From Opitutus sp. GAS368 (lineage in GTDB: Bacteria > Verrucomicrobiota > Verrucomicrobiia > Opitutales > Opitutaceae), in contig NZ_LT629735.1 of assembly GCF_900104925.1 (NCBI RefSeq), positions 124,001 through 188,000 on the forward strand: DNA of 64,000 bases, written 5' to 3'. This document shows positions 3,542-32,266 of this stretch, one piece after another; position 1 is the first letter of the stretch, and every line of letters starts with the position of its first letter. The position numbers and the translations under genes are program-made. Below the pieces are notes generated by a model. It searched no databases. It saw only the letters and a program-made list of their open reading frames with translations, and was not told where the DNA came from.

Positions 3542-4495
3542 ATGAACCCGTTCACAAATAGCCGCGCCCAATCCGTCGCCGCCCGCGGCGAGCGGCGTCT
3601 GATCGCCGGCATCCGCTCGTGGCTGGGCCGGGCTTCGCCGGCCGCGCCGTTCGGCATCGGTGACGACTGTGCGGTCATTCCGCCGACCACGCATCACCAA
3701 CTGGTCACCACCGACCCGGTCATCTGGGGCCAGCATTTCGACGCCACCGTGCCGGCCCGCGCCGCCGGCGCCAAGCTCCTGAAGCGCAACCTGAGCGACA
3801 TTGCCGCCATGGGCGGCCGGCCGGTGGCGGCCGTCGTGTCGCTCGCGCTGGCACCGCAAACCAGCGTCCGCTGGCTCGAGGCATTCTACCGCGGCCTCGC
3901 GGCGTGCGCCCGGCAATATCGCGTCAAGATCGTCGGCGGCGATATCACCCAGGGGCCGGTGGGCTTCTTCGGTGCCTTCCTCACCCTGCACGGTGAATCC
4001 ACCGGCCGGCGGATCGTCACGCGCCGTGGCGCCCGGGCGGGCGACTCGATCTACGTCACCGGCGCGCTCGGAGGCAGCCTGCTGGGCCACCACTTCAAGT
4101 TCACGCCGCGGCTCGCCGAGGGCGCCTGGCTGGCCGGACGGACGGAGGTCCGCGCCATGATGGACGTGAGCGACGGCCTCGCAAAGGATCTCGCTGCGCT
4201 CACTCCCGCCGGGCTGGTGCCGGCGTTGGCCGCAGCCGCCATTCCGGTCAGCCCAGCGGCGCGCCGCCGCGCCAAAGCCACGAAGAAAAGCCCGCTCTTC
4301 CACGCGCTCGGCGACGGCGAGGATTACGAACTCTTGCTTGTTGTCCGGGCCAATGCCCCCCGGTTTGAGCGCGACTGGCGGAAGCGCTTCCCGCGGCTGA
4401 AGCTCACGCGCCTCGGCCGTTTCGCCCGGAAAAACCAACTGCCCGCCGGCTCGCTGCGCCTCGCGGACTATCACGGCTATGAACATCTGCGGTGA
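3542..4495 (+). CDS. thiL: Thiamine-monophosphate kinase
   Basis: It phosphorylates thiamine monophosphate with ATP to give the cofactor thiamine diphosphate, the last step of the pathway. The 317-residue protein has the AIR synthase-like fold signals: FGIGDDCAVIPP near the N-terminus, the NLSDIAAMGG segment, GGDITQG, MDVSDGLAKD, and GDGEDYELL near the C-terminus. The start chosen is the ATG at 3542. The frame also runs upstream to 3455, but that part lies in a palindromic repeat. The last 22 codons are duplicated downstream at 4662-4730. No other thiamine genes are nearby. Confidence 0.92.
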   Translation: MNPFTNSRAQSVAARGERRLIAGIRSWLGRASPAAPFGIGDDCAVIPPTTHHQLVTTDPVIWGQHFDATVPARAAGAKLLKRNLSDIAAMGGRPVAAVVSLALAPQTSVRWLEAFYRGLAACARQYRVKIVGGDITQGPVGFFGAFLTLHGESTGRRIVTRRGARAGDSIYVTGALGGSLLGHHFKFTPRLAEGAWLAGRTEVRAMMDVSDGLAKDLAALTPAGLVPALAAAAIPVSPAARRRAKATKKSPLFHALGDGEDYELLLVVRANAPRFERDWRKRFPRLKLTRLGRFARKNQLPAGSLRLADYHGYEHLR

Positions 4496-4661
4496 TCGCC
4501 CAAGACATTTTATGGCCACGAAGAGGCGCAAAAATGATTTTAGCCCGCGGCCGGGAATATTCCGTGCGCCTATAGGCGCCTTGAGAACCACGTCTGCCCT
4601 CGATTTCTTTGTGCCTTTTTGTGGCTAACCCGGCAGCCTTTTCTCCGCTTCATGATTTGTC
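4496..4661. repeat. Palindromic repeat with GCGCCTATAGGCGC core (copy 1)
   Basis: The 304-bp gap between thiL and tsaE holds no gene. Its first part is an inverted repeat: arms near 4513-4537 and 4608-4627 (GGCCACGAAGAGGCGCAAAA and its complement-like partner) flank the perfect palindrome GCGCCTATAGGCGC at 4566-4579. A second, inverted copy with the same core and the same flanking words (CTTGAG, GTCTGC) lies at 16669-16840. The remainder of the gap holds the thiL tail copy and a REP element. Confidence 0.7.
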
Positions 4662-4730
4662 CGAAAAAAACAATTGCCCGCCGGGGCGCTGCGCCTCGCG
4701 GACTATCTCGGCTATGAACACTTACGCTGA
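4662..4730 (+). pseudogene. Duplicated 3' end of thiL
   Basis: This segment matches the last 22 codons and stop codon of thiL (4427-4495) at 59 of 69 positions with no gap. Translated in the thiL frame it reads RKKQLPAGALRLADYLGYEHLR and then stop, against RKNQLPAGSLRLADYHGYEHLR in the gene. Most differences are synonymous or conservative, which suggests the copy came from a homologous thiL allele or was under coding selection for a time. It has no start codon of its own and no upstream gene body. It sits between two palindromic repeats. Confidence 0.85.
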
Positions 4731-4733
4731 ACC

Positions 4734-4788
4734 GGTGGAGCGCGGCCTCCGGACGCGCTCTCAACGCGCCCGGAGGTCGCGTTCCACC
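4734..4788. repeat. REP/BIME-like element upstream of tsaE
   Basis: The arms 4734-4757 and 4765-4788 are near-perfect inverted repeats with the feet GGTGGAG and GTTCCACC. The sequence family is the same as at 10863 and 38250 (shared CGGCCTCCGGACG core). It sits 12 bp before the tsaE start and may affect translation of that gene. Confidence 0.75.
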
Positions 4789-4799
4789 CCGATACAGCC

Positions 4800-5234
4800 A
4801 TGACGATTGTCGAAAGGCTCAAACAGGGCATCACGACCGAGTCGGCCGAGCAGACCCGCGTTCTCGCGGCGGAACTGGCCGCAGCGCTGCCGCCCGACAC
4901 CACGCTGGCGCTGCACGGCGACATGGGCGTGGGCAAGACGACCTTCGTGCAGGGCCTGGCCCAGGGCTTGGGCGTGCCGGAGCACGTGACGAGCCCGACT
5001 TTTGCGATCTACTCGGTTTACCAGGGCAAGGGCCGCAAGCTCGTCCACCTTGACGCCTACCGGCTGGAGAAGGAAGCGCAGCTCGAGGCGCTGCTGCTCG
5101 ATGAATTTCTGGTCAGCCCGTATGTGCTCGCCGTCGAGTGGCCGGAGAAAACCGGCGCGTGGCTGCCCAAGGATGCCTGGCATCTGACGCTGTCCATCGT
5201 CGACGGCGACAAACATCGGCTGGTCTTACTGTAG
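4800..5234 (+). CDS. tsaE: tRNA threonylcarbamoyladenosine biosynthesis ATPase TsaE
   Basis: TsaE is the ATPase that drives the TsaB-TsaD complex, which attaches threonylcarbamoyl to A37 of tRNAs reading ANN codons. The 144-residue protein has a Walker A loop GDMGVGKTT (residues 40-48), the family motif VTSPTFAI, LVHLDAYRLE with the Walker B-like acidic residues, and a VEWPEK segment. The length is normal. The ATG at 4800 follows a palindromic repeat; no strong ribosome binding site is visible. Confidence 0.93.
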   Translation: MTIVERLKQGITTESAEQTRVLAAELAAALPPDTTLALHGDMGVGKTTFVQGLAQGLGVPEHVTSPTFAIYSVYQGKGRKLVHLDAYRLEKEAQLEALLLDEFLVSPYVLAVEWPEKTGAWLPKDAWHLTLSIVDGDKHRLVLL

Positions 5235-5313
5235 CGGCGGTCTGTGACCGCCGATGACGGCGCTCATAGAGCGCCGCTACAGGCCGCGGTCCGGCGACTA
5301 GCGCCGACCCTAC
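5231..5313. repeat. REP/BIME-like element (GTAG type) after tsaE
   Basis: The feet TGTAG and CTACA (5230-5281) enclose two hairpins, CGGCGGTC-TGT-GACCGCCG and CGGCGCTC-ATAG-AGCGCCG. A further partial unit ending CCGACCCTAC follows up to about 5312. The gap lies between the convergent ends of tsaE and the next gene. Confidence 0.75.
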
Positions 5314-9803: not shown

Positions 9804-9937
9804 GGCTTCAGCGCATCCTCCAGTTCCCCCTCCGTCAATAGCTTAGGGCCCCGACGGCACCCGCGGGCCTGTATGACGGGAATCCCGCCCAAGGCATTTG
9901 ACCGCAGCGGGTTTCTGGCGATGCTTCCCCCGCCGCC

Positions 9938-10855
9938 ATGACACCCGACGCCATCAAGCAGGCCCTGCTCGAGTCCTATGCCCGCGATGGAGGGATCAAC
10001 CACCTCGACGGCGTCAACCTGCCCTCCCAAGACCGGGTGGCCGAGCTGGCCCGCGATTTCATGCACGTGCTGTTCCCGGGTTACTTCGAAAGCACCAGCC
10101 TGGCCAAGAACGACGTGCCGGCCTGGCTCGACCGGATGCTGGCCAAGATCGACGAGCGTCTGACCACCGAGCTCGAGAAAAGCCTCCTTTTTGCCAAGGA
10201 TCCCGCGCCCATTGCCAACGCCCGCCGCATCACCACCACCCTGCTGAGCAAGCTGCCGGAAATCCGCCGCGTGGTGCAGACTGACGTGCAGGCCGCCTAC
10301 ACCGGCGACCCGGCCGCGCGCAACGTCGAGGAGATCATCCTCGCCTACCCGTGCGTGCTGGCGATCTCGCTCCAGCGCATCGCCCACGAGCTCTACCGGC
10401 TCGGCGTGCCGCTGCTGCCGCGCATGCTCACCGAATACGGTCACGAACGCACCGGCGTGGACCTCCACCCCGGCGCGACGATCGGCACGCACTTCTTCAT
10501 CGACCACTGCGTCGGCGTCGTGATCGGCGAGACGGCCACCATCGGCAACCACGTGAAGCTCTACCAGGGCGTGACGCTCGGCGCAAAATCCTTCGAGGTC
10601 GACAACGCGGGCAACCCGGTGAAGGGCGTCAAGCGCCACCCCGACATCGGCGACCACGTGACCATCTACGCCCACGCCACCATCCTCGGTGGCGAGACGC
10701 GCATCGGTGAACACAGCGTCATCGGCGGCAACGTCTGGCTGCTCGAGTCCATCGCCGCCAACAGCATCGTGTATTTCAAGGGCGACGACCTCGTCGTGCG
10801 CCCGCGGAACAAGAAGGAACTGCTCGTCGCCGAGTCGGCCGACTGGGTGATCTGA
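9938..10855 (+). CDS. cysE: Serine O-acetyltransferase (EpsC/CysE family)
   Basis: It transfers acetyl from acetyl-CoA to L-serine to give O-acetylserine, the precursor of cysteine. The 305-residue protein has an all-helical N-terminal half (about 1-180) and a left-handed beta-helix built from hexapeptide repeats. Family motifs include GVDLHPGATIG, FIDHCVGVVIGETATIG (catalytic His), VTLGAKSF and KRHPDIGDHVTIYAHATILGG. The long N-terminal half fits the EpsC-like subgroup. It is monocistronic. Confidence 0.92.
   Translation: MTPDAIKQALLESYARDGGINHLDGVNLPSQDRVAELARDFMHVLFPGYFESTSLAKNDVPAWLDRMLAKIDERLTTELEKSLLFAKDPAPIANARRITTTLLSKLPEIRRVVQTDVQAAYTGDPAARNVEEIILAYPCVLAISLQRIAHELYRLGVPLLPRMLTEYGHERTGVDLHPGATIGTHFFIDHCVGVVIGETATIGNHVKLYQGVTLGAKSFEVDNAGNPVKGVKRHPDIGDHVTIYAHATILGGETRIGEHSVIGGNVWLLESIAANSIVYFKGDDLVVRPRNKKELLVAESADWVI

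Positions 10856-31355: not shown

Positions 31356-31724
<369 letters not shown>

Positions 31725-31870: not shown

Positions 31871-32266
<396 letters not shown>

Follow-up and report, generated by a model that had tools for sequence, protein, structure and literature searches.

A doubled thiL gene end in front of tsaE in Opitutus sp. GAS368, probably a readable scar of recombination between two allelic junctions

Known recombination events and the thiL–tsaE locus

In homology-facilitated illegitimate recombination (HFIR), an incoming linear DNA fragment is joined by homology at one end and illegitimately at the other, and such events are reported in Streptococcus pneumoniae, Acinetobacter baylyi and Pseudomonas stutzeri, with a low-frequency occurrence in E. 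coli conjugation (PMC3240628). Genetic exchange can also give rise to partial duplications, as in the merodiploids generated by transformation of S. pneumoniae, in which part of the chromosome is duplicated (PMC3784515). In addition, a strong enrichment of GTAG-tagged REP palindromes is reported for O. terrae, which belongs to the Verrucomicrobia (PMC3733652).

The thiL–tsaE region of Opitutus sp. GAS368 has features in common with each of these. By analogy, the anatomy proposed here for its doubled thiL end matches that of HFIR, with the differences that the event is read from a natural scar, that the homologous end was not located, that the donor was not found and that there is no clear microhomology at the joint. 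Unlike the pneumococcal merodiploids, GAS368 has doubled only a 75-nt gene tail, without a second working gene (PMC3784515). The two repeat families at the locus, here called REP1 and REP2, are dispersed and intergenic like the REP palindromes, and the genome contains Y1 transposase-type genes; however, they flank the scar without explaining it, and we liken them to published REPs by general character, not by family assignment (PMC3733652). We regard the locus as a legible natural example of how an exchange between diverged species may leave a non-coding gene fragment behind while the genes on both sides remain whole. Annotation can be misled by such relics, which also serve as useful markers of past recombination. 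The scar would reflect an ordinary kind of event with an unusually readable anatomy, and implies no new mechanism or function.

The doubled gene end and its surroundings

The window is the whole stretch of DNA that was analysed, 64,000 nt in length, and the features of the locus are collected in Table 1. Both genes were recognized in profile searches, thiL with 209.4 bits against the TIGR01379 curated cut-off of 184.15 and tsaE with 103.6 bits against the TIGR00150 cut-off of 60.1, PF02367 being matched as well.

Table 1. Positions of features at the thiL–tsaE locus of GAS368, counted from the first base of the window
Feature	Position	Strand	Remarks
thiL (thiamine-phosphate kinase)	3542-4495	+	full length, 317 aa and stop; TIGR01379
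Tail 1, working thiL 3′ end, first repeat copy	4421-4495	+	repeat scan, base count
REP1, dispersed inverted-repeat element	~4500-4641	+	arms ~4515-4534 and ~4606-4625; boundaries approximate
CATGA, corresponding to the start of tsaE in the REP1-type allele	4651-4655	+	directly ahead of the joint 4655|4656
Tail 2, repeat of the thiL 3′ end including the stop codon, untranslated	4656-4730	+	
REP2, near-perfect palindrome from a different dispersed family	4734-4788	+	directly behind tail 2
CATGA at the present tsaE start	4799-4803	+	
tsaE (tRNA threonylcarbamoyladenosine ATPase subunit)	4800-5234	+	TIGR00150, PF02367

An earlier note on this DNA had described a recurrence of the thiL end 235 bp downstream at 59/69 identity without frame disruption. 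This proved exact for a 69-nt core (4427-4495 and 4662-4730), and repeat scan and base count extend the two tails to 75 nt with 63/75 positions identical (84%) at a spacing of 235, two of the 12 differences lying in the first six bases. Comparison of a 4-kb slice with itself by BLASTN gave an E value of 2.4e-18 for the best 60 nt of the pair, so the resemblance is not due to chance, and tail 2 has kept both the reading frame and the stop codon. The pair is one of seven direct-repeat families returned by a plain repeat scan of the window. Another pair in the window, at 31356-31655 and 31871-32170 (300 nt each, 84% identity), looks by eye like two minus-strand genes of the PII type (glnB/glnK) in tandem.

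The palindromic repeat that the same note had placed between the copies stood up in part: the element there does belong to a dispersed family and its arms match at 16/20 positions, but the repeat scan listed no inverted pair at REP1 at the settings used, and 4496-4662 folded as DNA no better than shuffles (z −0.63). We term REP1 a palindrome because of the match between its arms and its membership of the dispersed family. Judged from its copies, which are spread through the genome and several of which end in CCAAG.../...CCTTGG, REP1 appears to be a miniature element of ~140 nt with terminal inverted repeats. The copies in L133-L146 have GGCCAC...GTGGC arms, and an inner GCGCCTATAGGCGC-like hairpin was seen in most of the 14 shown.

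REP2, which the earlier note does not mention, has a left arm of which 26 nt recur identically at six other places in the genome, among the matches listed (40 of 144 candidates scored), and folding of 4732-4790 as RNA gave −49.3 kcal/mol, a single value without a shuffle control. The genome has nine matches to the Y1 transposase family PF01797, and two of these lie ~0.9-1.6 kb from REP2 copies (G000:C1:1183741 with 1185314, and G000:C1:3395165 with 3396105, G000 being the GAS368 genome); the match at 1185314 has an internal stop.

A scan of 4300-4900 found no promoter or terminator, and the only Rfam match at gathering thresholds in the whole window was a tRNA. Read by eye, 4652-4717 forms a frame of ~21 codons that starts with an ATG stranded at the joint, does not share the register of the thiL tail and shows nothing gene-like. 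A further palindrome, tagcggcggtc...gcgccgctaca, lies at 5232-5285 and begins at the tsaE stop codon.

Allelic layouts in relatives and the joint at 4655|4656

Of the 150 genomes in the family sample, 140 contained thiL, as did 20 of the 21 of the genus, GAS368 included. The locus comparison covered 80 loci with named records, the best 80 of 129; compared loci carry L-numbers, some of which (e.g. L133-L146) denote stretches of the GAS368 genome itself. The named records are mostly titled Opitutaceae or Verrucomicrobia, some being labelled Lacunisphaera, and it is from these titles that we infer the genus name Lacunisphaera.

Comparison of sister species, as the earlier note had proposed, brought out both half-layouts, thiL–REP1–tsaE in L053 and thiL–REP2–tsaE in L054 and L055. 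L053 (87% protein identity), the nearest relative in most gene comparisons, has thiL, REP1, a spacer ending in CTTCATGA and at once tsaE, and reads CTTCATGACCATTGTT... into tsaE where GAS368 has its first CATGA; its REP1 loop resembles that of GAS368, the spacer up to CATGA is common to both, and there is no second tail. L062 has a REP1 arm with a different loop, also without a second tail, and in L054 and L055 thiL is followed by a REP2-type palindrome and then by tsaE. The GGCCAC arm of REP1 starts exactly 18 nt past the thiL stop codon in four genomes, namely GAS368, L053, L062 and the more distant L060. In L060 the sequence between stop codon and arm differs despite this offset, so that agreement in position is no proof of shared descent; the constant offset may reflect either this or a preferred insertion point. 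Differing inverted repeats were also noticed in the thiL–tsaE spacers of L053, L054, L055, L060, L062 and L065. A strict repeat detector flagged eight of 77 distinct spacers in which the TsaE motif was found, REP1 of GAS368 and of L039 (which is from the L053 genome) being half matches only.

When the 79 distinct thiL tails from L009-L132 that have ≥200 nt of sequence behind them were compared, only that of GAS368 was followed by a second tail, the next best ungapped match reaching 40/75; eight ‘short’ matches to the tail motif comprised the same GAS368 tail in overlapping loci (three) and unrelated motif matches (five). The distance from the thiL stop codon to the TsaE P-loop, 421 nt in GAS368, was the largest among the rows examined, which count some genomes twice and have a median of 100 nt. 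In half or more of these rows thiL and tsaE overlap or lie close together, whereas in GAS368 the spacer between them measures 304 nt. We also scanned 101 records (1,010,683 bases: the window, the 80 relatives’ loci and 20 stretches of the GAS368 genome, of which L145 overlaps the window) for scars of the same class, i.e. 35-400-nt repeats at ≥72% of which one copy contains a gene end and the other has the corresponding stop codon outside a long frame. The doubled GAS368 thiL tail, which reads as a recombination scar of a known kind, was the sole case.

GAS368 follows the L053 layout through 4655, and from 4656 it continues with the interior of a thiL tail, REP2 and tsaE, a switch of layout that points to an end-to-end joint of two allelic versions. 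The sequences that meet at the joint are non-homologous, the counterpart of a tsaE start abutting the interior of a thiL tail, as at an illegitimate junction. The illegitimate joint in HFIR carries a short microhomology; at 4655|4656 nothing clear was seen by eye in the relatives’ sequences.

On this comparison of layouts, the duplication is probably a scar left when two alleles of the thiL–tsaE junction, from related Lacunisphaera-like lineages, recombined. Version 1 would have consisted of thiL with tail 1, REP1, the spacer and the tsaE start, and version 2 of thiL with tail 2, (REP2) and tsaE. One version would have been resident and the other would have arrived as a DNA fragment, via transformation or another route; one end of this fragment would have recombined homologously in thiL or tsaE, whereas at the other the tsaE start of version 1 (CATGA, to 4655) would have been fused illegitimately with the version 2 thiL tail (4656 onwards). 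Since an entire thiL would have come with version 1 and an entire tsaE with version 2, neither gene would have been broken, and tail 2 would have been left as an untranslated relic. We infer that REP2 was already in version 2 on arrival, that the other end was homologous and by what kind of route the fragment came. GAS368 has a ComEC-type DNA uptake channel (PF03772, 161.2 bits), which is weak evidence, being matched in 10 of 14 control genomes too; it would permit transformation as the route and does not show it. REP2 begins 3 nt past the tail 2 stop codon, and the REP2-type palindromes of L054 and L055 lie 2 and 1 nt past the thiL stop codon respectively; because the inside of REP2 behind tail 2 is of a subfamily common in GAS368, not of the L054/L055 type, and because REP2-like elements lie ≤5 nt from a stop codon on one side in 5/15 of the genome’s own cases and 1/7 in relatives, this position is weak evidence for the joining of alleles.

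Divergence of tail 2 and competing explanations

At sites where tail 1 and L053 agree, seven of the eight changes private to tail 2 are synonymous, against a neutral expectation of 26-32% (P 0.0006-0.002, or 0.002-0.006 with a three-way site added as nonsynonymous), and all 12 differences between the tails lead to only four amino-acid changes (P 0.01-0.03 under neutrality). The remark in the earlier note that many of the changes are silent was thus right, and can now be put in numbers. The lone private nonsynonymous change, His to Leu, gives a residue present at this position in none of 80 distinct tails and fits later decay. Since the private changes are so largely synonymous, tail 2 probably diverged for the most part as a working gene end elsewhere; decay in place is disfavoured by the same bias. 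The source was probably another lineage, because beyond thiL and tail 2 the GAS368 genome has no further thiL match at E 0.001. For a foreign origin of the incoming DNA, the coding-like divergence of tail 2 speaks in favour and phylogenetic placement does not decide.

These data bear most directly on an in-place tandem duplication in the GAS368 lineage, after which REP1 would have been lost from behind the new copy, REP2 inserted and the copies left to diverge neutrally. Such a history would require no donor, and of all tails examined tail 1 is indeed the nearest to tail 2, but we consider it unlikely, as neutral divergence sits badly with the synonymous bias and with the small number of amino-acid changes. 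Moreover, a simple tandem duplication would predict REP1 behind tail 2, where no trace of it was found, so that an extra deletion and an insertion have to be invoked.

Very unlikely is a double tail ancestral to GAS368, L053, L054 and L055, of which L054 and L055 would have lost half by recombination between the tails and L053 by a CATGA–CATGA deletion. Both half-layouts do occur in relatives, and CATGA stands on both sides of 4656-4803, the stretch absent from L053; against this, several precise deletions would be required, 78 of the 79 distinct tails have no second tail, and an old tail 2 should have evolved without coding constraint, contrary to what its changes indicate.

As REP1 sits between the tails, and as tail 1 resembles those of L062 and L066 unusually closely, L062 sharing the REP1 offset, one might suppose that the element makes a long target-site duplication (69-75 bp) on insertion or delivers a gene end of its own as a cassette. 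This is more improbable still, because a fresh target duplication would be identical and not 84% alike, and because L053 and L062 carry REP1 at the site without any duplication; as REP1 lies at an equal distance in L053 with no second tail, its insertion alone does not explain the duplication. We also looked for direct repeats (≥40 nt, E <1e-3, starts within 1200 nt) in 20 other repeat stretches of the GAS368 genome, 14 chosen for matches to REP1 and six for matches to REP2, and in none did a duplication flank the repeat. The sole hit, in L139 (52 nt, 77%, 680-731 and 1821-1872), has both copies on the same side of its REP1 copy (~2022-2146) and hence does not flank it. The double tail therefore looks like a one-off, present in one of 79 thiL tails and none of the 20 stretches. 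Repeat-driven target duplication is rejected on account of L053, L062 and these stretches, which likewise do not support the suggestion in the earlier note of a repeat insertion followed by repair; the similar tail duplications for which that note proposed to look at other repeat insertions were not seen in the 20 stretches. Its second suggestion, recombination with a diverged thiL allele, gains support from the joint at a tsaE start, the different sequence behind tail 2 and the coding-like divergence.

Possible traces of yet another process, in which a gene end and REP1 would travel between species of the genus as a unit and the element would swap the 3′ end of its host gene while the old end stays, are the likeness of tail 1 to L062 and L066, unlike the rest of thiL, and the 18-nt offset in four genomes; we give this idea hardly any credence. 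Least credible is an assembly artefact, for the one assembly examined is a single contig of 4,150,783 bases with a completeness of 100 and contains no other thiL-like sequence, and a doubled read is improbable with copies that differ at 16% of positions.

If two alleles were joined, as we favour, the data lean slightly towards version 1 as the resident and tail 2 as the incoming sequence. The earlier note had asked whether the downstream copy is the ancestral end and the upstream one the acquired end, and on this the findings pull in both directions. A resident tail 1 is favoured by the likeness to L053, which has REP1 too, with a similar loop, and also the spacer as far as CATGA. For the reverse speaks that tail 1 is 88% identical to the tail of L062 and 85% to that of L066, where the rest of the gene predicts 75% and 76% respectively; these are the largest and second-largest residuals in an analysis of 190 pairs from 20 sequences, a selection from the loci. 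Gene trees were built with up to 19 relatives chosen from the 80 loci (7 to 19 per gene), and no weight is placed on their support labels, which shift on re-rooting. Maximum-likelihood placement of tail 1 on the thiL tree put L062 first, and tail 2 took no definite place. For both tails the placements of interest survived the AU test, that of tail 1 with L053 among them (p 0.265); of six named relatives the test excluded only L068, for tail 2 (p 0.047). After tail 1, the tails nearest to tail 2 are those of L053 (60/75) and of L062 and L055 (57 each), and no donor was found among the tails compared.

Sliding identities along thiL and tsaE were noisy and gave no clear breakpoint for the homologous end. 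The divergence between GAS368 and L053, relative to other pairs, was 0.35-0.63 in 10 of 12 hyp5353 windows (0.78 and 0.95 in the other two), 0.60-0.89 in nine windows of thiL and tsaE, and ranged from 0.17 to 0.94 in pyrC windows, a noisy pattern that is compatible with local exchange. Further along the window, identity over 9871-10850 is slightly higher with L055 (83.7%) than with L053 (82.3%), a pattern not seen in the other genes of the comparison, and the stretch may represent a further exchange.
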